Assembly: GCA_013151635.1 (NCBI GenBank)
Contig: JAADHV010000049.1
Span: forward strand, 1-37,876
Direction of reading: 5' to 3'
DNA length: 37,876 nucleotides
DNA from: Deltaproteobacteria bacterium
GTDB lineage: Bacteria > Desulfobacterota > Desulfobacteria > Desulfobacterales > Desulfobacteraceae
Position 1 is the stretch's first letter; every line of letters starts with the position of its first letter. The position numbers and the translations under genes are program-made. Under the pieces are notes generated by a model. It saw nothing but the letters and a program-made list of their open reading frames with translations, did not search any database and was not told where the DNA came from. Positions 26,639 to 37,219 of this stretch are shown piece by piece.

Positions 26639-27709
26639 TTAGTTTATACCAATATCCTTTGGCCGGACCATGATCCAGTTTTTATCCGCCGTCACTTTCA
26701 AGTCAAGTTCTTTTTCCTGGCGGGCCCTGAGAGCAAAAGCTTTTTGGGTCTTTTTCCAATACTTTTCCTTCCTGTTGATCCAGAGCTTAAGACCGCCCTT
26801 TGCATAATCTGAATAAAAAAGCATAAAATGATCATTTGGAGAATCTCCTGCAACCAGAATGGGTCTTTTAACGGGGTGAATATAATCCTTGATAGCGGCA
26901 AGTTTTCCGACATACATGGTATTTGGCCCCCAGATATAGGGGGTTAGCTCCTTTTTATAATGGGTCTCTTTGGTATACTTGTCATCAAAAAAGTGGCCTC
27001 GTTTAATCTGGAGACGGGCAGTTGTAACATCAAAGGTTTTCCTGTCCTTTAAAAGGCAGGAAACGCCAATGACATTTTCAGGCTTTACATTGATGCCGTA
27101 TTTTGGATCGGAAACCACCATCCTGGCGAGTTCTTCAAGGGCAGCAGATACGACATATACCTCAATACCATTTGCCTGCAATGCATTGATCAATTCTCTC
27201 TGGCCAGGATAAATCCTGGGGGTTTCAGGCTTGTATTCAACCAGCTTGCCGTTGTCCCAGTATTTACAGGGAACTTTAGCCCCGTTTAATGCAAACAAGT
27301 CATCCACATAATTTTTCAACTCGCCCAGGGTAAAACCGCTGAAAACCTGGGCAATCCAGGGATATCCGACTTTATGGTCGATATCATACAATTTATAGGC
27401 ATAGGAAACCAGGGTATCCTCTGGATGAAAGGGAATCAGCTTCAAGGAAGGGTCTATGGTTCTGCGGGTCAAAAGCCCCTTGTTTTCAAGATAAGGGAGA
27501 AGGGATTCTTCAAGGTCCCTGTACCAGATGGTGTTGTCTGCATCAAATACTGCATACTCGCCTTGATCAGCATGCTGTTCAATAAATTTTTCAAGTATTT
27601 TTGCCTCTTTTTGCGGCCAGTGTTTCAACTCGACCCCGAATGAAAAAGACACGCTGACAAATACCAGCACAAATCCCAGGAACAGACCGATTTTAATGTG
27701 ACGTTTCAT
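26639..27709 (-). CDS. pchP: Periplasmic HAD phosphatase, probable phosphorylcholine phosphatase
   Basis: A 356-residue HAD hydrolase with a signal peptide (MKRHIK then a hydrophobic core to about residue 25), so it works in the periplasm. HAD motifs are AVFDADNTIW (nucleophile Asp and acid/base Asp), YVVSAALEEL (motif II) and LVAGDSPNDHFML (acidic motif). The whole length resembles Pseudomonas phosphorylcholine phosphatase as I remember it: ELKHWP, DLEESLLPYLENKG, PWIAQVFSGFTLGELK, NVIGVSCLLKDRKT and KGGLKLWINRKEKY. It would release choline and phosphate from phosphocholine. Start 27709 follows GGAGGAAACC. The open frame reaches 46 codons further upstream, but these lack a signal peptide. 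It is the last gene behind the Liv importer. Confidence 0.88.
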   Translation of the reverse strand: MKRHIKIGLFLGFVLVFVSVSFSFGVELKHWPQKEAKILEKFIEQHADQGEYAVFDADNTIWYRDLEESLLPYLENKGLLTRRTIDPSLKLIPFHPEDTLVSYAYKLYDIDHKVGYPWIAQVFSGFTLGELKNYVDDLFALNGAKVPCKYWDNGKLVEYKPETPRIYPGQRELINALQANGIEVYVVSAALEELARMVVSDPKYGINVKPENVIGVSCLLKDRKTFDVTTARLQIKRGHFFDDKYTKETHYKKELTPYIWGPNTMYVGKLAAIKDYIHPVKRPILVAGDSPNDHFMLFYSDYAKGGLKLWINRKEKYWKKTQKAFALRARQEKELDLKVTADKNWIMVRPKDIGIN

Positions 27710-27749
27710 GGTTTCCTCCGAAAGTTTATGATATAAGAGATAATTGCAT

Positions 27750-27781
27750 CTCAGGGGAAATTTATAGCAATTTCCCCTGAG
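27750..27781. repeat. Perfect 13-bp inverted repeat between binding-protein gene and pchP
   Basis: CTCAGGGGAAATT (27750-27762) pairs exactly with AATTTCCCCTGAG (27769-27781) around 6 bases. It lies after the binding-protein stop and before pchP in the direction of transcription. There is no T-tract on the minus strand, so partial termination or protection of the upstream message against 3' decay is likelier than full termination. This fits the usual need for more binding protein than downstream product. Confidence 0.6.
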
Positions 27782-27861
27782 GATGTGTGACGTTTCAGGA
27801 TGGCAGCGGTTCTCCTTCTGTGTCCGCAGGCGGGGAACTGCTGTCATTTGATTTGCTTTTT

Positions 27862-29082
27862 TTATTTAATCCATCTTGGTACCTGGAATTTATAATTTTT
27901 ATAGGGTTTTGTGGGCGGATCTGTAAAAATGGCGACCATTTCCCCGTTCTGTACCTGGTAATGGGCAATGGGCACATCCCCACCCGCCCTCATGACATGA
28001 TCTGCGTCCCATTTCCACCACCCGGTTTCCCCTTTATATCCTTTGGTGGCAATATAATTATTAATCTTGTCATGTGCCTTTTCATCCCCGACAGCTTTAA
28101 CAGCCGCGGCCCATGCTTTAACACCGCTGTAAGCTGCCCACGATCCTGCCTGGGGCAGATGGTGCCAGATGGTGTTAAATTTTTTCAACCAGGCCTGGGC
28201 TTCAGGCGTGGGTGCCTCAGGCGTAGGCATGGCAGTGGGGACTTCACCGATAATACCGTCTGCCTCTTTGCCCATGGTTCCCACAACTTCCCTTGGCACC
28301 AGGGAATACCCGTAACTCAAAATAGACTTGGTGGGTTTTTTCATGAACTGCCGGAAAAACGTGATCACTTCCTGGGCAGACACGATTTCCACATGAATGA
28401 TGGCAGGTTTGATCTTCCGGATTTTAGTCAGCAAAGGGCCCCACTGGTTGGTGCCATAGGGAACCAGTTCATGCATGGCCACTTTCCACCCTTTTTTCTT
28501 AAAATTCTTTTCCAGGGTATCCCCTACTTCCGTACCCCAGGCGTCATCCGCTGTTATTATAACAACCTTTTTATTGGGATATTCATAAGGCAATGCCATC
28601 AGCACGTTAAACATGCTCTTGGCCTGGTTGATACCGGTATCGGTGAGCTGAAAGATATTATTGTATTGCTTCTTGTTCTGCTTGTAAATATCCACGGCAG
28701 TCTGTGATCCGTCATCAGCGAAAAACGAAGCCGTATATTTTCCATAGGCCCGGACATCCTGGCCCCATCCGGCCCACCCTGCGTGGACGGAATCAACCTT
28801 TAATTTTCCACAAAGATAGTCAGCGCCCTGCATGACCCGTTCCGGTGCAAATTCCTGGGTATCAAACCGCACAGGTTCCAGCTTTTTGCCAAGGAGCCCG
28901 CCTGCTTCATTGATTTCGTCAATAGCCATTTTAATCCCTTTCCAATAATTGTCGCCTGTATCGGTATAAGGGCCTGTCATGGCCAGGGGAACTCCGACTT
29001 TAATCACGCCTTTGGCCCATGCGCCCTGTGCCATGAACAAACTTAAAACCAGGATTAATAATAGACTTAATGTTTTTTTCAT
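27862..29082 (-). CDS. Liv-type ABC importer substrate-binding protein
   Basis: A 406-residue periplasmic binding protein of the branched-chain amino acid (Peripla_BP_6) family. Residues 1-23 are a signal peptide ending AQGAWA; the mature part starts KGVIKVGVPLAMTGPYTDTG, as in LivJ relatives. No lipobox Cys is seen. AAGGAGGTAGG lies before the ATG. Despite the family name, ligands range widely. The mature protein has many Trp and Tyr residues (AGWAGWGQD, GWWKWD), and its setting next to pchP, betA and aor suggests choline or a related quaternary amine; that is inference. Confidence 0.9.
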   Translation of the reverse strand: MKKTLSLLLILVLSLFMAQGAWAKGVIKVGVPLAMTGPYTDTGDNYWKGIKMAIDEINEAGGLLGKKLEPVRFDTQEFAPERVMQGADYLCGKLKVDSVHAGWAGWGQDVRAYGKYTASFFADDGSQTAVDIYKQNKKQYNNIFQLTDTGINQAKSMFNVLMALPYEYPNKKVVIITADDAWGTEVGDTLEKNFKKKGWKVAMHELVPYGTNQWGPLLTKIRKIKPAIIHVEIVSAQEVITFFRQFMKKPTKSILSYGYSLVPREVVGTMGKEADGIIGEVPTAMPTPEAPTPEAQAWLKKFNTIWHHLPQAGSWAAYSGVKAWAAAVKAVGDEKAHDKINNYIATKGYKGETGWWKWDADHVMRAGGDVPIAHYQVQNGEMVAIFTDPPTKPYKNYKFQVPRWIK

Positions 29083-29110
29083 CCTACCTCCTTGAATAAT
29101 TGTTATTATT

Positions 29111-30085
29111 TCAATTTAAGCTACGCACTTTCTTTTTTTTTAAAAATATTTTTTCAAACATCCCCACGATGCCATCCGGCAGTAAAAGGACCAGGATCAC
29201 AACCATTGCACCCAGTGTAATGGGGCGGAAAGACCCTAAGGGGGACAGCATTTCATTGATGGCAATGGTGATAAATGCGCCGATGATGGCACCGGGAAAT
29301 TTTCCTACGCCGCCGATGACCAGGATAACCATAAGGGTGACAAAAAGATCAATCCCCAGCATCCGTGTGGAGAGCATGCCCACATAATGGGCGTAAAATC
29401 CGCCGATAACCCCGGTGAGAAACGAAGTCAGGGCAAATACCATGAGCTTGTACTTGAATGCGCTCACGCCAAGGCAGGAGGCAAACTCCTCTGCGTCTTT
29501 AAGGGCCAGAAATGCAGTCCCCCAGTGGGATTTAATCACAGCCAGAATAATGCCAGAACAGATAACAGCCACAAAAAGCATGAGGTAAAAATAAGGGACA
29601 GGTTCCGAGCTTGTAAAGGTATATCCGAATATATTCATAGGCTGGATGGTCAAAATTCCCCTGGAGCCGCCAGTACCGATCGCCCGGCCGATGCCCCCCT
29701 TGAGAACCGGTTCCAGGATCATATGAACGGCAAAAGTGACAAGGGCGATATAAGCCCCTTTGAGTTTCAGGCAGGGAAGACCGACAAGAATGCCGATTCC
29801 TGCTGCAATCACCCCGGCAAGGAAAACGGCAAATATGGGGGGAATTCCAAATTTTGCCGTGATAATTGCAGATGCATAAGCCCCTATGACAAAAAATGCG
29901 ACCTGGCCAAAGGAAAAAATCCCGGCAAATCCCATGATAAGATCCCAGCATGAGGCCACAACAGACCATATCAGGCACATTATCAGTATATGCATGATAA
30001 AATTGGTGGACCCGAAAAACAAAGGAAGAACCGCCACGATACTCCAGATAACAGCCAGTAATTTTGCAATGCGTTTGTGTTCCAT
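29111..30085 (-). CDS. livM: Liv-type ABC importer permease, LivM family
   Basis: A 324-residue integral membrane permease with about eight to ten hydrophobic segments. Family features are DLIMGFAGIFSFGQVAFFVIG (the LivM signature region), GTGGSRGILTIQP and VIGGVGKFPGAIIGA near the C-terminus. The C-terminus is basic (KIFLKKKKVR). It pairs with LivH, starts 4 bases after the livH stop with a G-rich ribosome site, and is followed by the binding-protein gene. Confidence 0.92.
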   Translation of the reverse strand: MEHKRIAKLLAVIWSIVAVLPLFFGSTNFIMHILIMCLIWSVVASCWDLIMGFAGIFSFGQVAFFVIGAYASAIITAKFGIPPIFAVFLAGVIAAGIGILVGLPCLKLKGAYIALVTFAVHMILEPVLKGGIGRAIGTGGSRGILTIQPMNIFGYTFTSSEPVPYFYLMLFVAVICSGIILAVIKSHWGTAFLALKDAEEFASCLGVSAFKYKLMVFALTSFLTGVIGGFYAHYVGMLSTRMLGIDLFVTLMVILVIGGVGKFPGAIIGAFITIAINEMLSPLGSFRPITLGAMVVILVLLLPDGIVGMFEKIFLKKKKVRSLN

Positions 30086-30089
30086 TGAT

Positions 30090-30962
30090 TTACCCCCATT
30101 TCCCCATAAGTCCCTGGGGTCTTATAGCCAGGGTTGTCAACAATACTGCAAATAATGCAATCAAGGTCCAGTTCATGCCGAACTGCCATCCGACAAAAGC
30201 CTCAAGCATGCCCACGATAAATGCGGCATAAAGGCCGCCCTTGATACTGCCCATACCCCCGAAAGCCGTTATTACCCAGGCTTTGATAAGAATATTCCAG
30301 CCACCTCCGGGTGTTACAAAATATTTCTGGGCCAGAAGGATTCCACCCATGCCAACCATAACCGTTGAAATGGCAAAGGTGGCGGCAAACACAAATTCCT
30401 TGGGGATTCCCACGATCTGGGCTCCGGCCGGGTTCTGGGCAACAGCCCTGACTGACATGCCGGTCCGGGTATTGTTGAGAAACCACCGGAAAAGAAGAAT
30501 ACCGCCAATGGACAGAACAAAAATCACCACATCCTGGTAGGAGAGAATAAAATCACCCACTTCAAAGGCTCCTTCCAGAATAGAGGGTAAGGACTTCATC
30601 CTTGCCCCGAATACCACCTGGTAGGAATTATCCAGAAAAAGGGCCAGTCCCAGGGTGATCATCATCACCTTGATTTCCCAGTCATCCCGCTTCCGCAACG
30701 GTGCCACCAGCAATTTTTCAATAAAAAAACCGAAAACCAGCAGCACGGGAGCGGCAAGACAGAACACCACCAGGTAATTTTTAAAATAGGCCACTCCGAA
30801 CAGCAAAAATGCAATATAGCCGCCCATGCTGTAAAAGGAGCCATAAGCAAAATTAAAGGCCTTGGAGACCCCGTAAATCAAAGTAAGGCCTACTGCCATG
30901 AGGGCGTAGACCGACCCGTTGATAAGGCCGCTGATGATAACATCCATAATCTCAATAAGCAT
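30090..30962 (-). CDS. livH: Liv-type ABC importer permease, LivH family
   Basis: A 290-residue integral membrane permease. Typical LivH stretches are LINGSVYALMAVGLTLIYGV, KAFNFAYGSFYSMGGYIAF, GMSVRAVAQNPAGAQIVGI and ITAFGGMGSIKGGLYAA. It forms the channel with LivM. AGGAGA precedes the ATG at 30962. It lies 14 bases after livF. The gene order livG-livF-livH-livM-binding protein differs from the common order in which the binding protein comes first. Confidence 0.93.
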   Translation of the reverse strand: MLIEIMDVIISGLINGSVYALMAVGLTLIYGVSKAFNFAYGSFYSMGGYIAFLLFGVAYFKNYLVVFCLAAPVLLVFGFFIEKLLVAPLRKRDDWEIKVMMITLGLALFLDNSYQVVFGARMKSLPSILEGAFEVGDFILSYQDVVIFVLSIGGILLFRWFLNNTRTGMSVRAVAQNPAGAQIVGIPKEFVFAATFAISTVMVGMGGILLAQKYFVTPGGGWNILIKAWVITAFGGMGSIKGGLYAAFIVGMLEAFVGWQFGMNWTLIALFAVLLTTLAIRPQGLMGKWG

Positions 30963-30976
30963 TATTGATTCTCCTG

Positions 30977-31681
30977 TTACATGCCAAGAAAAATTTCTTT
31001 CAGGTGGTCATTGCCAAGCGCTTCATCCTTGGTCCCTTCAAAGGAAATCCTGCCTTCCTCCAGAACATAAAGTTTGTCGGCAAGTTCGGTGATCTGGGGG
31101 ATATTCTGTTCCACCACAAGAACCGTCATGCCCTGGCTGTTGATCTCCCTTATAATCCTTCCCACCTCATCTCTCAAATTGGGCTGAAGGCCCAGGGAAG
31201 GCTCGTCTATGGCCAAAAACTTTGCATTGGACATAAGGCCCCTTGCAATGGCAAGCATCCTTGCTTCCCCACCACTCATGGTGGAGGCAAGTTGTAATTT
31301 ACGCTCTTTTAAGCGGGGGAAAAGGGAAAAAACCTTTTCCAGGTTTGTTGCTTCATAGGGCCTTGCCGCCTTGGAATAGGCCCCAAGCTTTAAGTTTTCC
31401 AATACTGTCATTTCAGGGAACAATTCACGGTTTTCCGCAATATAGGTAATTCCCTTGTTTACCAGTTTTTCCGCACCCAGGCCTGCAATATTTTCTCCAT
31501 TGTATTCAATATGGCCGGTGACCTTATTTACAAGGCCGCAGATGGATTTTAAAAAAGTGCTTTTCCCATGGCCGTTGGGACCCAGCATCACAACGATCTG
31601 GCCCTTTTTAACTTCCATGGAAACATTCTTCAATACATGGAAGTCATCGTAGTAGGCATCTAACTTGCTGATTTTAATCAT
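30977..31681 (-). CDS. livF: Liv-type ABC importer ATPase, LivF family
   Basis: A 234-residue ATPase. Walker A is GPNGHGKST, the ABC signature is MSGGEARMLAIARGLM and Walker B is KFLAIDEPSLGL; the switch His position is taken by Gln in VVEQNIPQ, usual for LivF. The start at 31681 overlaps the end of livG by eight bases and has a GGGGG stretch upstream, so coupling is likely; an upstream frame extension of 8 codons is inside livG. It should dimerise with LivG. Confidence 0.93.
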   Translation of the reverse strand: MIKISKLDAYYDDFHVLKNVSMEVKKGQIVVMLGPNGHGKSTFLKSICGLVNKVTGHIEYNGENIAGLGAEKLVNKGITYIAENRELFPEMTVLENLKLGAYSKAARPYEATNLEKVFSLFPRLKERKLQLASTMSGGEARMLAIARGLMSNAKFLAIDEPSLGLQPNLRDEVGRIIREINSQGMTVLVVEQNIPQITELADKLYVLEEGRISFEGTKDEALGNDHLKEIFLGM

Positions 31682-32384
31682 TATTACCCCCAAGATAACA
31701 TTCAATCACCCTTGGATCGCTGGTCACATCCACAGGATTGCCGCAGCAGACTTCAGTACCGGTTTCAATTATCAAAAGTTTTTCAGTCAATTCGGTCAGG
31801 ACCTTCATAAAGTGCTCAATAATAATGATGGTGATCCCCATCTCCCGGTTAATCCTTTGAACAAGGTTCATGAGCTTCATAATTTCTTTTGCATTTGAAC
31901 CTGCCATGGGTTCATCCAGCATCAGTACCCGTGGTTTGGTGGCAAGGGCAGCGCCTATCATAAGCATTTTCTTGTCCAGGAGATTAAGTTGTCCCGTGGA
32001 AGAATCCCGCTTGTCAATAAGGTTGACAAACCTTAAAATTTTTTCCACATAATCGTGTTCAAATCCGTCCCTGCTTCCGAAATGACTTCCCACGCCAATA
32101 CTTTTTTCAACGCTTAAACTGGGGAAGGTCTGGGGGATCTGAAAGGTTCTTGAAATCCCTAGTTTTGCAATCTGGTGTGGGGGAAGGCCCCTGATTTCTC
32201 CATTATTAAAGGTAACTGAACCTTCAAAAGGGTAAAGGCCTGTAATCAGGTTGTAAAGGGTGGATTTCCCGGCGCCGTTGGGTCCTGCAATTCCAAAGAC
32301 CTGGCCTTGTTCAACTTCAAAGCTCAGGTTGTTGACTGCGGTCAATTCGCCAAATTTCTTGGTAACATTGGTCATTTTAAGCAT
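31674..32384 (-). CDS. livG: Liv-type ABC importer ATPase, LivG family, with unusual signature motif
   Basis: A 236-residue ATPase with Walker A GPNGAGKST, Walker B VLMLDEPMAG and switch His in IIIIEHFMK. The ABC signature, normally LSxGQ- or PYGxQ-like in this family, reads STGQLNLLDKKMLMIG, with GAAL where the ARAL of relatives would be, so it is degenerate. The partner LivF has a canonical signature. The start at 32384 is chosen because the AGGT before it fits a ribosome site and the typical LivG start MLKMTNVTKKFG follows; 12 more codons are open upstream. It is the first gene of the importer operon, facing the aor operon. Confidence 0.9.
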   Translation of the reverse strand: MLKMTNVTKKFGELTAVNNLSFEVEQGQVFGIAGPNGAGKSTLYNLITGLYPFEGSVTFNNGEIRGLPPHQIAKLGISRTFQIPQTFPSLSVEKSIGVGSHFGSRDGFEHDYVEKILRFVNLIDKRDSSTGQLNLLDKKMLMIGAALATKPRVLMLDEPMAGSNAKEIMKLMNLVQRINREMGITIIIIEHFMKVLTELTEKLLIIETGTEVCCGNPVDVTSDPRVIECYLGGNND

Positions 32385-32430
32385 CTTACCTGTTCCTTCC
32401 TTCGAGTTGAAGTTGAACACAGTTTTGCTA

Positions 32431-32452
32431 TCACGTAGTATGTAATAGGTGA
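32431..32452. promoter_or_regulatory. Palindromic operator-like site 1, livG side
   Basis: A 22-base near-palindrome with left half TCACGTAGTAT and right half GTAATAGGTGA, flanked by TA on both sides. Sixteen of 22 positions are symmetric. Nearly the same sequence recurs at 32514-32535. The length and symmetry suit a TetR-type dimer site. It lies about 50 bases upstream of the livG start. Confidence 0.55.
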
Positions 32453-32512
32453 TATGTAATCATAGCCATAGCACAGGTTTTTTTTTAAATCAACAAAAAA
32501 AGGGGAAAGCTG

Positions 32513-32541
32513 TTTACATAGTACATAATATGTGATATTTT
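32513..32541 (+). promoter_or_regulatory. sigma70-like promoter of the ferredoxin-aor-tetR operon
   Basis: TTTACA at 32513-32518 (five of six matches to the -35 consensus), a 17-base spacer and TATTTT at 32536-32541 (four of six). The ribosome binding site AGGAGA lies at 32567-32572. The spacer is almost wholly occupied by operator-like site 2, so a bound regulator would block RNA polymerase. Confidence 0.5.
32514..32535. promoter_or_regulatory. Palindromic operator-like site 2, aor side
   Basis: Left half TTACATAGTAC and right half ATAATATGTGA. On the same symmetry scheme as site 1 (TCAC-n-TA-n-TA, two bases, then TA-n-TA-n-GTGA), only the second base differs. The two centres are 83 bases apart in the divergent intergenic region, one near each operon. 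The site coincides with the spacer of the promoter at 32513-32541. The TetR gene at 34817 is the obvious candidate regulator. Confidence 0.55.
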
Positions 32542-32577
32542 CCTTTTCCAGAATAAAAACTTTATCAGGAGAAAGCT

Positions 32578-32997
32578 ATCAAGGCCTTTATTCATACAAA
32601 CTTTGACAAATGCACAGGGTGCAGTATCTGCCAGCTTGCGTGCAGCATGGACCTGATCAAGGGATATAATCCCGGGCGGTCCCGCATTTTCATTCACCAT
32701 AAAAATGAAAACCTTTTTCACTTCCCAATGGTCTGCAACCAGTGTGAAAATGCCTATTGTCTGACTGTCTGCCCTGCCGGGGCCATCCTGCGAAACAAGG
32801 ACGGCATCGTTCTTATTGACCATGATAAATGCATCGGCTGTGGCCTGTGTGCTGAATACTGCCCGATCAAGGCCGTGATAATTGATCCTGATACCAGAAA
32901 GGCTGTTAAATGCGAATTGTGCCAGGGGAACCCCTTATGCGTTGAAGCCTGCCCCACCGGAGCCCTTGAACTTGTTCACAAAAGGAAAAATCAATGA
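32578..32997 (+). CDS. Four-cluster ferredoxin, electron-transfer partner of the aldehyde oxidoreductase, apparent ATC start
   Basis: About 139 residues with four [4Fe-4S] cysteine sets: CTGCSICQLAC at the start, CNQCENAYCLTVCPAG, CIGCGLCAEYCPIKAV and CELCQGNPLCVEACPTGAL. This is the DmsB/HycB-like type often encoded beside tungsten aldehyde oxidoreductases. The frame contains no ATG, GTG or TTG between the stop at 32554 and the first cluster. The first ATG (32644) comes after it and would delete its cysteines. A strong AGGAGA at 32567-32572 sits 5 bases before ATC at 32578, so initiation at ATC, or an ATG-to-ATC change or base error, is the simplest reading. The stop overlaps the aor start (ATGA). 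Confidence 0.85.
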   Translation: MKAFIHTNFDKCTGCSICQLACSMDLIKGYNPGRSRIFIHHKNENLFHFPMVCNQCENAYCLTVCPAGAILRNKDGIVLIDHDKCIGCGLCAEYCPIKAVIIDPDTRKAVKCELCQGNPLCVEACPTGALELVHKRKNQ

Positions 32998-34796
32998 CTT
33001 GCGCCTGCACAAACAAACTGCTGAGGATTGATTTAACCCGCGAATCCTTTGAAATCCTTCCGGTTCTTGACACCCTTAAAGCCGATTTTATCGGGGGAAA
33101 GGGGTTTGGAGCAAAGTTTCTTCATGAAGGGGTTTCCCCTGGCACTGATCCTATGGGGAAAGACAATTTACTTATGTTCATGACCGGGCCTTTGACAGGA
33201 ACCATGGCCCCGGCCATGCGGGGCTGCGTGGTCACAAAATCGCCTTTAACCGGAATTTTCCTGGATTCCTATTTCGGGGGCAGGTTTGCGCCCGAGATCA
33301 AATATGCAGGATATGACGGTATCATTATAACAGGATGTGCAAAAAGGCCCTCTTATATCCGTATTGATGATGACCATGTGGAGATCCGGGATGCACGGTA
33401 TTTATGGGGGAAAGATACCCTTGAAACCAATCGCCTGATTAAAAATGAACTTACCGATGAAACAATCAAGATCGCAAGTATCGGTAAGGCAGGGGAGAAC
33501 AGGGTATTGTTTGCCCTTATCTGCTGTGAATACAACCGCCAGGCAGGCCGGGGCGGGGCCGGGGCTGTCATGGGGTCTAAAAATCTTAAAGCCATTGCAA
33601 TCAAGGGTACAAAACCTGTGGCTGTCCATGATGTAAAGGGATTTATAAAAGCCTGTGCCACGGCTTTTAAAGAACTTGAAACATGCCCGGATGTTGAGGC
33701 CTTAAAAATTGCCGGAACAGCTTCTGCGGTTGAATTTGCCAATGAAGCAGGACTCCTGCCCCATAAAAATTACAAAAACGGAACTTTTTCCAAGGCTGCC
33801 ATGCTGGCGGATAAGGGACAGTCAAAGCATTTATGGCTGGGCAGTTCTGCCTGCATGGGGTGTCCTGTTGCATGCAGCAAGACAGGAGCTGTCCGCACTG
33901 GAATTTATAAGGGTTTTGTTACGGATATTGTAGAATATGAATCCTGTGCCCTCATGGGCTCCAACCTTGATATTTCAGATATCCGGGCTGTAGCCCACCT
34001 TGTCCGCCTCTGCGATCTTTACGGGATGGACTCCATGTCCACGGGCAATATTATCGGCTTTGCCATGGAGGCCTGTGAAAAAGGACTTATCTCTTCTCCT
34101 GCCGGCATCAAGCTAAAATTTGGCAATGTGGCGGCGGCAGAACACCTTATCCACACCATTGCCGGTCAAACAGACGAACTTGGAAAAATTTTATCCAAAG
34201 GGGTAAAAAAGGCGGCAAAAAAAATAGGCAAAAAAGCCTGCGATATTGCCGTCCATACCAAGGGCCTTGAATCTCCGGCCTGGGGCCCAAGGGGGGTATC
34301 GGGCATGGGGCTTGCTCTTATGACCACAGATCGGGGCGGATGCCACCAGAGAGGATTTCCCGTGGCCTATGAATTATCAAGAGAATGGGAAGGGCATCCT
34401 CTTGATCCTCTTTTACCTGAAGGAAAAGCCAGTATGGTGATTGCCCTGCAAAATTATTCGGCCGGCACAGACACCCTTGTTAAATGTGATTTTGGCAGTT
34501 TCGGTATCTCCAAAGCTACCTATGCAGAACTTCTTTCTACTGCAACAGGACGCAAGGCTGATCCTGAGATTTTCAGTCGAACCGGAGAGCGAATCTGGAA
34601 CCTTGTAAGATGCTTTAACCTGGCACAGGGAATGGATGCATCGTCAGACACTCTTCCCCCGCGATTTGTAAATGAGGCACTTCCCGACGGGCCTTCCAGG
34701 GGCCACAGGATTTCAAAAAAAGATATGGCCTATATGATTCAGGAGTATTATAAGCTAAGGGGATGGAACAAAAAAGGTGTTCCGCAAAAACCCTGA
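32994..34796 (+). CDS. aor: Aldehyde:ferredoxin oxidoreductase, tungsten-type
   Basis: A 600-residue AOR-family enzyme oxidising an aldehyde to the carboxylic acid with a tungsten bis-pterin cofactor and one [4Fe-4S] cluster. Seen: the N-terminal domain with FIGGKGFGAKFLHE and MTGPLTGT, the cofactor loop QAGRGGAGAVMGSKNLKA, the cluster cysteines SACMGCPVACSK plus a late Cys in KCDFGSFG, and SPAWGPRGVSGMGLALMTTDRG. The ATG overlaps the stop of the ferredoxin gene, so the two are translationally coupled. In place between importer, phosphocholine phosphatase and choline dehydrogenase genes, betaine aldehyde is the inferred substrate; a general detoxifying role is the alternative. Confidence 0.94.
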   Translation: MTCACTNKLLRIDLTRESFEILPVLDTLKADFIGGKGFGAKFLHEGVSPGTDPMGKDNLLMFMTGPLTGTMAPAMRGCVVTKSPLTGIFLDSYFGGRFAPEIKYAGYDGIIITGCAKRPSYIRIDDDHVEIRDARYLWGKDTLETNRLIKNELTDETIKIASIGKAGENRVLFALICCEYNRQAGRGGAGAVMGSKNLKAIAIKGTKPVAVHDVKGFIKACATAFKELETCPDVEALKIAGTASAVEFANEAGLLPHKNYKNGTFSKAAMLADKGQSKHLWLGSSACMGCPVACSKTGAVRTGIYKGFVTDIVEYESCALMGSNLDISDIRAVAHLVRLCDLYGMDSMSTGNIIGFAMEACEKGLISSPAGIKLKFGNVAAAEHLIHTIAGQTDELGKILSKGVKKAAKKIGKKACDIAVHTKGLESPAWGPRGVSGMGLALMTTDRGGCHQRGFPVAYELSREWEGHPLDPLLPEGKASMVIALQNYSAGTDTLVKCDFGSFGISKATYAELLSTATGRKADPEIFSRTGERIWNLVRCFNLAQGMDASSDTLPPRFVNEALPDGPSRGHRISKKDMAYMIQEYYKLRGWNKKGVPQKP

Positions 34797-34816
34797 ATCA
34801 ATAAAGGATAAAAACC

Positions 34817-35407
34817 ATGACGGATCCTATTAACAAAAAAGAGGCCAAACGCATTGCCACGAGGAAGCGGATTCTTGAAACCGCCACTCATTTATTTGCA
34901 AGACTCGGGTACCACAAAACCACGATCCAGGACATTGCCTACCACATCGGCATGACCACGGGTGCCGTGTTTCATCACTATGATTCCAAGGCGGATATTC
35001 TGGACGATGTGGTAAAAGAACTTGATCACAGCTTTGACCGTTATATTGAGTACTTAAGCCATGATCACACAAATTATAAAAGAATGATTAACGGAATGAT
35101 GGATATTTTCATGGACAGGTTTCATTACCACCCCGACACCATCATTGCGCTTGCTTCCCTGGCGGCTGAGTTCAGCGGCATCAGGGGCCCTGTTATTGTA
35201 AAAACCCAGGCAGCCTATGATAAATTTGTGGATGCCTTTGAAAAAGCCCTGGACAGGATTTCCAAAAAGGGAACCAACAGGGCTGCCGCAGTCTGTTTTA
35301 TCTCAGGCCTTCAGGGCGTGGCCCTCCAGGCCCTGGTAAGGGACGGCGAAATGGATATCAAAGAATTAGTAGCAGGTTTCATCAGCCTTGTGACTGAAAA
35401 CCGGTAG
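34817..35407 (+). CDS. TetR/AcrR family transcriptional regulator
   Basis: A 196-residue regulator. The N-terminal helix-turn-helix is plain: RKRILETATHLFARLGYHKT, then IQDIAYHIGMTTGAVFHHYD and SKADIL. The C-terminal ligand-binding domain is divergent, as is normal, and ends at ELVAGFISLVTENR. It lies 20 bases after aor, in the same transcript. The two palindromes at 32431 and 32514 are its likely operators, giving autoregulation together with control of the importer. It might be a BetI analogue that senses choline or betaine aldehyde; sequence alone cannot show this. Confidence 0.93.
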   Translation: MTDPINKKEAKRIATRKRILETATHLFARLGYHKTTIQDIAYHIGMTTGAVFHHYDSKADILDDVVKELDHSFDRYIEYLSHDHTNYKRMINGMMDIFMDRFHYHPDTIIALASLAAEFSGIRGPVIVKTQAAYDKFVDAFEKALDRISKKGTNRAAAVCFISGLQGVALQALVRDGEMDIKELVAGFISLVTENR

Positions 35408-35437
35408 GGCATTAAAAACCTGCCGCCTTTATTTTTT
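35402..35437 (+). terminator. Intrinsic terminator after the tetR gene
   Basis: CGGTAGG at 35402-35408 pairs with CCTGCCG at 35419-35425 (one G-T pair) around 10 bases, and a T-rich run follows at 35428-35437. It overlaps the tetR stop and separates the operon from betA, which would then have its own promoter in the 130 bases that follow; I could not settle on one there. Confidence 0.5.
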
Positions 35438-35563
35438 TATCCTCCAAACGCTGAAACAATGCCCGGGCTGCGGTTTGAATCTCAAGAAGATGCCGGATTC
35501 AGGCTGCAATTGAATGGTCTGGTTGTAATTGTACTTGTTTTATATTGATAAGGAGTTGTGAGG

Positions 35564-37219
35564 ATGAAAAAAAATTATGATTATATCATTATTGGCGGTG
35601 GTTCTGCAGGGTGTGTTCTTGCCAACAGGCTCAGCCTTGACCCTTCAAGCAATGTCCTGGTGCTGGAAGCAGGACGGCCCGATTATATCTGGGATATTTT
35701 TATTCATATGCCCGCAGGTTTGACCTTTCCCCTGGGCAATAAATATTATGACTGGTGCTATGAAACCGAGCCTGAGCCCCATATGCAAAACAGGAAAATT
35801 TTCCACGGCCGGGGCAAAGTCCTGGGCGGGTCATCCAGTATCAACGGCATGATCTATATTCGCGGCAATGCCATGGATTACGAGAAATGGGCAAAGGATC
35901 CAGGCATGGAAAATTGGGACTATGCCCACAACCTCCCTTATTTTAAACGAGCCGAGAACAGGCTCAAAGGCCCGGATGAATACCATGGCACAAAAGGACC
36001 GCTTATCCTTGAAACAGGGCCCTGTAAAAACCCGCTTTTCCATGCATTCTTAAGTTCCGCCAAAGAGGCAGGTTACCCTTTAACCAGTGATGTCAACGGA
36101 TTCCAGCAGGAAGGCTTTGGCGCCTTTGACCGGAATATCAGCCAAGGCCGCCGCCTCAGTGCAGCAAGAGCCTATCTTCACCCGGTCATGAAGCAAAGGC
36201 CCAACCTGGATGTCATCTGCCGGGCCCTGACCACAAAAATCCTGTTTAAAGGCAAAAAAGCGGTTGGTGTGGAATTTATCAAGGGTAAAAAAAGGCAAAC
36301 CCAAACCATCCATTCCAATGAAGTCATCTGTTGCGGCGGTTCCATCAACTCACCCCAGATCCTCCAGTTGTCAGGTATTGGCAATGCCAAAGAACTTGAA
36401 AAAACCGGTGTCAAGCCGATCCATGACCTTCCGGGGGTGGGAGAAAACATGCAGGACCACCTGGAAGTCTATGTCCAGTATAAGAGCAAGAAACCCGTGT
36501 CCATGAATTCCGCCCTTAAATGGTGGAAAAAACCCTTTATCGGTTACCAGTGGCTTTTCCACAGGAAAGGAGCAGCTGCCACAAACCATTTTGAGGCAGG
36601 AGGGTTTATAAGGAGCAATGAAGACGTTAAATACCCCAATATCCAATTTCACTTTTTACCCCTGGCCATCCGTTATGACGGCACCCAGCCAAGCCACGAC
36701 CACGGTTACCAGGTCCATGTGGGCCCGATGTATTCCAATGCCATCGGGTCTGTTAAAATCAAATCTGCCGATCCCGGGCAGCACCCGGCCCTTTGCTTCA
36801 ACTATTTATCCACCGACCAGGATAGAAGAGAATGGGTGGAAGCCATAAGGTGCGCCAGAAAAATCATGAACCAGCCTGCCTTTGATGAATTCAACGGGGG
36901 TGAAATTTCCCCTGGTACTAATGTCCGGACAGATAAAGATATACTGGAATGGGTTGCCAGAGACGCAGAAACAGCTCTTCATCCATCTTGCACCTGTAAA
37001 ATGGGAAAAGACAATATGGCCGTAGTAGATCCTGATACCATGAGAGTCCACGGTATTGAAAACCTGCGCGTTGTGGATGCTTCCGTCATGCCCTATGTCA
37101 CCAATGGTAATATCTACGCCCCCACCATGATGGTGGCGGAAAAAGCCTGTGACATAATCCTTGGCAATACCCTGGAGCCGCCTTCAAAGGCAAAATTTTA
37201 CCGCCACCACGCAGGATAA
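35564..37219 (+). CDS. betA: Choline dehydrogenase, GMC flavoprotein
   Basis: A 551-residue FAD enzyme oxidising choline to betaine aldehyde. The FAD site is [17 protein letters not shown] at the start. GMC signature 1 is [15 protein letters not shown] and signature 2 is [16 protein letters not shown]. The catalytic His is in HPSCTCKMG, and the end reads [20 protein letters not shown]. Resemblance to BetA runs through the whole chain ([42 protein letters not shown] at the end), well beyond the shared GMC motifs. Start 35564 has AAGGAG at a good distance; the GTG at 35558 is too close to it. Electrons probably go to quinone or another carrier, since oxygen is absent in this lifestyle. It does not overlap any betB. 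Confidence 0.92.

Follow-up and report, generated by a model that had tools for sequence, protein, structure and literature searches.

Gene content of the island

The DNA studied here (the window: 37,876 nucleotides, contig 1 of the 136 contigs of a 4.21 Mb, 95.4% complete genome of the Desulfobacterales) contains between positions 26639 and 37219 two divergent groups of genes, in which a gene for an aldehyde ferredoxin oxidoreductase (AOR) of the tungsten type is located close to betA, encoding choline dehydrogenase. On the reverse strand, a gene for a PchP-like phosphatase of the haloacid dehalogenase (HAD) family (26639..27709; 356 aa with the start read at MKRHIKIG) closes an operon for a Liv-type importer, comprising a type I substrate-binding protein (SBP; 27862..29082, PF13458 at 139 bits), LivM- and LivH-type permeases (29111..30085 and 30090..30962, both PF02653), and LivF- and LivG-type ATPases (30977..31681 and 31674..32420), which match the NCBIfam models UrtE/LivF and LivG/UrtD, respectively, below their cut-offs. 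The forward strand carries a four-cluster ferredoxin with four cysteine motifs and a probable ATC start (32578..32997), the stop codon of which overlaps the start of the AOR gene (32994..34796, PF02730 and PF01314), followed by a TetR-family regulator (34817..35407, PF00440) and BetA, a choline dehydrogenase of the GMC family (35558..37219). The sequence-only reading of the window had described this same arrangement, and it stood at all coordinates, as did its statement that no BetB-type aldehyde dehydrogenase is encoded there: the window contig gave zero PF00171 matches at E ≤ 0.001. The AOR belongs to a clade which we refer to as choline-linked, and is proposed to act as a betaine aldehyde:ferredoxin oxidoreductase.

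BetA and the choline-linked AOR clade

The window BetA scores 866.6 bits with the betA equivalog model TIGR01810 (cut-off 732.1) and 899.8 with PRK02106 (cut-off 605), and shares 54.7% identity with BetA of E. coli; all four AOR-linked BetA proteins that were scanned are over the equivalog cut-off. BetA is present as a single copy in its genome, and the window AOR is therefore the only one to be located beside it. The genome has 16 matches to the AOR family, some of which are only pieces, corresponding to about 15 genes, and the chance that any of these falls in a given 14 kb stretch of 4.2 Mb is about 5%.

The window AOR contains both characteristic domains (AFOR_N at 251.2 bits, AFOR_C at 382.6 bits), its nearest solved relative is the Pyrococcus furiosus enzyme (PDB 1aor, 406.8 bits), and its CxxCxxxC motif and distal cluster cysteine align to those of 1aor. 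We compared 42 choline-linked AORs of sufficient length (40 from the order, two from Clostridiales) with 40 other AORs, and all 42 were found on one side of a single branch (Shimodaira-Hasegawa-like approximate likelihood ratio test (SH-aLRT) 100, stem length 0.61), in a tree in which several of the background rows have long branches. In the available part of a review (PMC12096430), Thr243, Glu313, Tyr427 and His448 (P. furiosus numbering) are described as second-shell residues present in most but not all AORs, with single substitutions noted, and Tyr427 as positioning the aldehyde. The choline-linked clade does not have the complete set of four: Thr243, Glu311, Glu313 and His448 are kept in 42/42, while Tyr427 is replaced by Trp in 40/42 (Trp430 in the window AOR) and by Phe in the other two. 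The same column contains Tyr in 30 and Trp in one of the 40 background AORs. Ser94 is Phe in all 42 members, and Tyr452 is Phe in 41, a column which also varies among the background AORs. Such additional aromatic residues would favour cation-pi contact with a trimethylammonium group.

Betaine aldehyde dehydrogenase and CutC in the window genome and its relatives

The genome of the window, at 95% completeness, has no BetB over the cut-off, the best score being 455.9 versus 668.6 bits. PF00171 gives five matches in this genome, three of which are fragments or weak; the two full-length proteins are nearest to succinate-semialdehyde dehydrogenase (596, below the cut-off of 646) and methylmalonate-semialdehyde dehydrogenase (528, over the cut-off of 449). 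At the cut-off, no BetB hidden elsewhere in the genome was found, in line with the absence of betB for which the sequence-only reading had proposed to look. The absence of cutC, for the choline trimethylamine-lyase CutC, was upheld more widely: none of 38 near-relative genomes (own genome included) is over the cut-off of TIGR04394, and the one glycyl radical enzyme of the own genome was rejected as a candidate at 500.1 versus 1050 bits.

None of these 38 genomes passes the cut-off of the betaine aldehyde dehydrogenase (BADH) model either. A genome of the same genus (G008) contains ChoX-like SBP, BetA, GntR and BetB genes in a row; its BetA is 71% identical to that of the window, its ChoX-like SBP is just under the cut-off (347.7 versus 379), and its BetB, at 658.9 bits on the BADH model, passes a second BetB model (806 versus 593). 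The same genome has no close orthologue of the window AOR (best 40%). As a separate observation, a distant AOR-family gene adjoins its betB (L130:13107-14990), scoring 346 bits on the model for glyceraldehyde-3-phosphate ferredoxin oxidoreductase (GAPOR) with a cut-off of 1300.

Orthologues of the window AOR, at 72-82% identity, are present in nine of the near-relative genomes (G000, G002, G004, G005, G013, G014, G018, G019 and G020), and the next best AORs are at most 43% identical. In eight of the nine, BetA is on the same contig behind AOR and TetR, although the AOR extends over the contig end in G005 and G019, and AOR and BetA are each at a contig end in G020. Two further genomes, in which the end of BetA is at the contig start (G021) or a tail of about 60 codons is present (G011), cannot be judged for linkage. 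The order of liv genes, ferredoxin, AOR, in part TetR, and BetA recurs in other genera and is thus not a product of chance; of the synteny proposed by the sequence-only reading, the liv-aor-betA part was recovered in relatives and other genera, whereas pchP is not part of it.

AOR and BetB at BetA loci throughout the order

A BetA search of 389 genomes of the order (E ≤ 1e-100) resulted in 68 matches in 66 genomes, and with two matches at 39-42% identity set aside there were 66 loci (at least 60% identity) in 64 genomes; an AOR was scored as present when encoded on the same fetched stretch with at least 53% identity. An AOR was found at 42 loci and BetB at 16, with a piece of BetB at the contig end in another two (L190, L213), neither at six, and both together at none of the 66. 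Five of the six loci with neither (L131, L151, L215, L216 and L217) are at or near a contig end, the exception being L186, which carries a ChoX-like SBP. The 42/66 loci with AOR compare with the figure of about 5% expected by chance for a 14 kb stretch of the window genome. There is also a clear difference in importers: Liv genes are found at 25/42 AOR loci versus 0/16 BetB loci, and ChoX-like SBPs at 2/42 versus 16/16. In G283 and G329, the two cases of a ChoX-like SBP at an AOR locus, this is combined with BetA and ferredoxin-AOR, without BetB on the stretch; their BetA proteins are over the cut-off (820 and 808 versus 732) and their SBPs below (331.7 and 329.0 versus 379), and the AOR here is located within an otherwise canonical choline operon.

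Genome-wide, BetB was called at 600 bits or more, a threshold of our own (at the curated cut-off, six of 61 genomes remain), and was present in 1/42 AOR-carrying genomes versus 16/18 genomes with a BetB locus, the other two being those with a truncated BetB. On a BetA tree (67 rows, made with a quick method, with three labels set by hand and some near-copies) the AOR or BetB label changes at least four times, with at least two changes forced by starred branches, compared to an average of 16.5 for shuffled labels.

The AOR clade with an unrelated choline dehydrogenase in Clostridiales

Outside the order set, 37 named AOR loci were found, several of which are from the same genomes as the order set. 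In the 24 with at least 60% AOR identity, the next enzyme gene is BetA in 20 and an Fe-type alcohol dehydrogenase in two, while the remaining two sequences end too early for it to be seen. The two with the Fe-type dehydrogenase are metagenome-assembled genomes of Clostridiales, with an AOR identity of 60-62%, and their dehydrogenases pass the cut-off for GbsB choline dehydrogenase (600.8 and 626.4 versus 550). Nearby are OpuAC-type SBPs (33-37% identical to the ChoX-like SBP of G008) and molybdopterin synthesis genes. As the pairing of one AOR clade with two unrelated dehydrogenase families is otherwise hard to explain, the clade would appear to use the common product of choline dehydrogenases. 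The same Clostridiales loci contain a second, distant AOR (29-30%) beside another Fe-type alcohol dehydrogenase (34-41%), also near molybdopterin genes (L113:1520-3250, L114:2245-3972).

Phosphatase and importer

The window phosphatase, which has an N-terminus resembling a signal peptide when judged by eye, matches Pseudomonas aeruginosa PchP (PDB 4as2) with phmmer at E 6.4e-105. In this alignment D31, D33, T35, S166, K242, D262, D267, E42 and E43 of PchP are retained, the aromatic triplet YYY82-84 is YAY (Y83 to Ala) and D265 is Asn; the available text of a PchP study describes HAD catalytic motif residues and relates E42 and E43 to choline (PMC3170909). The sequence-only reading had included this phosphatase in the island, but its conservation there was not borne out: PchP matches occur in just five of the 38 genomes, own one included, and the close homologue is confined to the own genome, the others being G028 (residues 9-324, 35% identity) plus three partial matches at 34-41%. 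PchP was thus rejected as a conserved member. The slot behind the SBP is occupied by an alkaline phosphatase (PF00245) in G013, G018 and G020, and PhoA-like genes are found at 7/24 named loci (six at at least 70% identity, one at 33%, with overlap in genomes with these three) and at L181. In G004 and G014 the slot contains an Fe-type alcohol dehydrogenase; the single one scanned, that of G004, falls short of the cut-off of 550 for both ErcA (354) and GbsB (342). Since unrelated phosphatases share one slot, this suggests that the importer may take up what remains of a phosphate ester. Import of branched-chain amino acids as a default role is possible, though the window SBP is far under the cut-off of the branched-chain SBP model NF011933 (66.3 versus 477) and its solved relatives are weak matches; in an SBP alignment of 18 rows, W103 and other aromatic residues are invariant.

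There are two types of Liv importer at the same position (L067-L075; window 27862-32420), about 85% or about 55% identical to the window SBP, and the AOR and BetA beside both types remain at least 72% identical. The Liv importer thus seems to be exchanged separately from AOR and BetA. In G005, a gene looking like a transposase by its sequence is located between the AOR start and livG (L075:1250-2710, G005:C29).

Ferredoxin start codon and regulator

The ferredoxin has its four 4-Cys motifs only when read from the ATC at 32578, while the open reading frame program placed the start at 32647. The ATC is preceded by AGGAG, and there is no standard in-frame start upstream in the window. Of 38 loci, 18 have ATC at the corresponding position, 14 of them without a standard in-frame start upstream, while four have ATT and one has ATA; in more distant relatives a standard start is often found a few codons upstream. 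Translation of the ferredoxin probably starts at the ATC, and conservation of a non-standard start codon in this gene would be unusual. With regard to the TetR regulator, this is not BetI by the cut-off (30.6 versus 201.3).

Putative downstream glycine betaine genes

An MtgB-like gene of the MttB family without in-frame stop codon is present in the own genome, on a contig other than that of the island. Among solved structures, the encoded protein is nearest to 9yce, a glycine betaine methyltransferase (E 3.7e-134), and to 2qne; with the trimethylamine methyltransferase model it scores below the cut-off (353 versus 525). In three relatives an MtgB-like gene is found on the island contig. In G249, a BCCT transporter is encoded within 5 kb of BetA, as is a close homologue of the MtgB-like protein (89%; 9yce at E 2.6e-139). 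In G344, where BetA itself is in two frames, a BetT-like match is located about 4 kb past BetA, followed at about 5.4 kb by MtgB-like pieces (81 and 94%), which are in two frames and truncated where the stretch ends. G005 has an 87% homologue 1.5 kb from BetA, and within 10 kb also electron transfer flavoprotein (ETF) subunits and a protein with DAO, FAO_M and GCV_T domains, as arranged in dimethylglycine or sarcosine dehydrogenases. As an aside, many other MttB-family genes contain a single in-frame TAG, which would fit pyrrolysine methyltransferases (for instance G000:C33:2560-3972, and in other genomes).

Proposed pathway and its alternatives

From this evidence, the island is in our view likely to be an anaerobic choline oxidation module with AOR in place of the NAD-linked BetB. 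In the own genome, choline would partly be released from phosphocholine outside the cytoplasm by the PchP-like phosphatase, and may be imported through the Liv-type importer. BetA, judged by its family, would convert choline to betaine aldehyde, which the tungsten-type AOR would oxidise to glycine betaine, with transfer of two electrons via the four-cluster ferredoxin encoded with it; the glycine betaine may then be demethylated by the MtgB-type methyltransferase of the same genome. That AOR stands in for BetB after BetA, as put forward in the sequence-only reading, has gained support from the synteny, from the lack of betB and CutC over their cut-offs, and from the absence of joint occurrence at 66 loci, with further agreement from the loci with ChoX-like SBP, BetA and AOR and from the AOR-GbsB pairs of Clostridiales. 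Many marine sulfate reducers thus appear to oxidise choline to glycine betaine by a ferredoxin-linked tungsten-type enzyme. We also incline, with less assurance, to a wider view in which the tungsten AORs of this clade would form a further, non-homologous class of enzymes oxidising betaine aldehyde, extending from Desulfobacterales into Clostridia, exchanged several times with BetB at the choline operon, recognising the trimethylammonium group partly via Trp430 and delivering low-potential electrons from choline oxidation for conservation of energy.

Several points weigh against this reading. A betB gene elsewhere, considered damaging in the sequence-only reading, is not found over the cut-off in the window genome, but does occur in one of the 42 AOR-carrying genomes: Desulfospira joergensenii (G378) has the island together with a 664.8-bit BetB on another contig, and this exception counts against a strict either-or rule for AOR and BetB. 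At 15/42 AOR loci no importer of the Liv or ChoX type was seen, possibly because the sequence fetched does not extend far enough, the TetR type of the window is found at 24/43 AOR loci, and PchP is not conserved across relatives. The shuffle tests rest in part on near-copies, and most of the genomes are metagenome-assembled. The presence of an AOR next to an alcohol dehydrogenase is by itself no sign of choline, because in Desulfovibrio this combination of neighbouring genes has been linked to ethanol use (PMC6491731, available part).

The AOR need not be essential if BetA performs both oxidations, with the AOR just removing toxic aldehydes, be it betaine aldehyde that escapes or others. The BetA of E. 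coli oxidises betaine aldehyde as well as choline, and in G046 a BetA with a ChoX-like SBP lacks both AOR and BetB over a distance of about 6 kb. We consider this explanation improbable, as the same AOR clade is paired with the unrelated GbsB in Clostridiales, and as AOR and BetB are together at 0/66 loci, an exclusion that would follow if the two enzymes had the same function. Very improbable, in our estimate, is that the BetA-AOR pair acts on another amino or short-chain alcohol such as dimethylethanolamine, imported by the Liv system, with the betA label a guess at the level of the family: the presence of Liv genes at 25/42 AOR loci and at none of the 16 BetB loci, the weak solved relatives of the Liv SBP and the Desulfovibrio ethanol precedent would fit this, whereas all four scanned AOR-linked BetA proteins exceed the equivalog cut-off, and choline or betaine is indicated by the GbsB and ChoX-like partners as well as by the MtgB-like neighbours.

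It is also conceivable, though unlikely, that the enzymes act as proposed but serve osmoprotection by glycine betaine synthesis instead of catabolism, an alternative which overlaps with the proposed choline oxidation module and leaves its AOR step unaffected. The hosts are marine, and the available text of two studies describes betAB as osmoprotective in Pseudodesulfovibrio (PMC11505543) and in a Desulfovibrio-related strain (PMC6491731). Against this, an MtgB-like gene is present in the own genome, G005 has ETF genes together with MtgB-like and dimethylglycine-dehydrogenase-like ones close to the island, and no BetT match was found in the window at E ≤ 1e-3. As MtgB-like genes are linked to the island in relatives and present in the own genome, a catabolic role of the island is probable, and osmoprotection a possibility.

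Under anaerobic conditions, the fate of choline determines whether trimethylamine, a precursor of methane, or other products are formed. If the proposed choline oxidation module is correct, conversion to glycine betaine with reduction of ferredoxin would allow more energy to be conserved than by the NAD route, without release of trimethylamine, and it would provide one AOR clade with a physiological substrate and a simple signature (Trp for Tyr427) by which more members may be found. The island is present in a named and sequenced isolate, D. joergensenii DSM 10085, for which no report of growth on choline was found in the literature searched, with the 1997 species description outside its scope.

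Comparison with known systems

The island resembles the BetA-BetB pathway in having a BetA over the cut-off, the same two proposed steps, and a ChoX-like SBP at two AOR loci, and differs from it by the ferredoxin-linked AOR that would take the place of BetB, by a TetR or GntR regulator which by the cut-off is not BetI, and by an importer that, where seen, is mostly of the Liv type. Canonical betAB has been described in sulfate reducers (PMC11505543, PMC6491731), and for 'Ca. Formimonas warabiya' anaerobic use of choline via glycine betaine and dimethylglycine, by means of choline and betaine aldehyde dehydrogenases, has been proposed (PMC8163858), as far as the available parts of these papers go. 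No proposal of an AOR in a choline operon was found in the literature searched, with subscription papers largely outside its scope, nor in the available text of PMC12096430, PMC11505543, PMC6295475, PMC8163858, PMC10344839, PMC6491731 and PMC12029414, the one related claim being that on WOR5. Since betAB is described and no AOR in a choline operon was found there, the choline to glycine betaine pathway is known, and what is new is the predicted tungsten-type enzyme in the place of BetB.

CutC likewise allows anaerobic use of choline, but in the route proposed for the island the C-N bond is kept. The two Clostridiales loci resemble the GbsAB system of Bacillus in having a GbsB over the cut-off, and differ in that this is partnered by the AOR clade in place of GbsA, which is an aldehyde dehydrogenase. 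The window phosphatase shares the HAD catalytic motifs and E42/E43 with P. aeruginosa PchP, and is distinguished by YAY at 82-84 and by the position of its gene as the last of a Liv importer operon. As in the aor-adh pair of Desulfovibrio, the aor gene is found beside a dehydrogenase gene, which here is a choline dehydrogenase over the cut-off.

Among AORs, the likeness to P. furiosus 1aor includes both AFOR domains, the cluster cysteines, Thr243, Glu311, Glu313 and His448, while the choline-linked clade is set apart by Trp (40/42) or Phe (2/42) for Tyr427, by Phe for Ser94, and by its tie to a choline dehydrogenase operon. The WOR5/ASOR of P. furiosus, a member of the same superfamily, oxidises betaine aldehyde as the second step after attack on taurine, and has His for the Tyr and no Thr, according to the available text (PMC12096430). 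The window AOR is closer to 1aor than to WOR5 (407 versus 260 bits), and differs from WOR5, which belongs to a sulfonate route, in that its clade keeps the Thr and has Trp.

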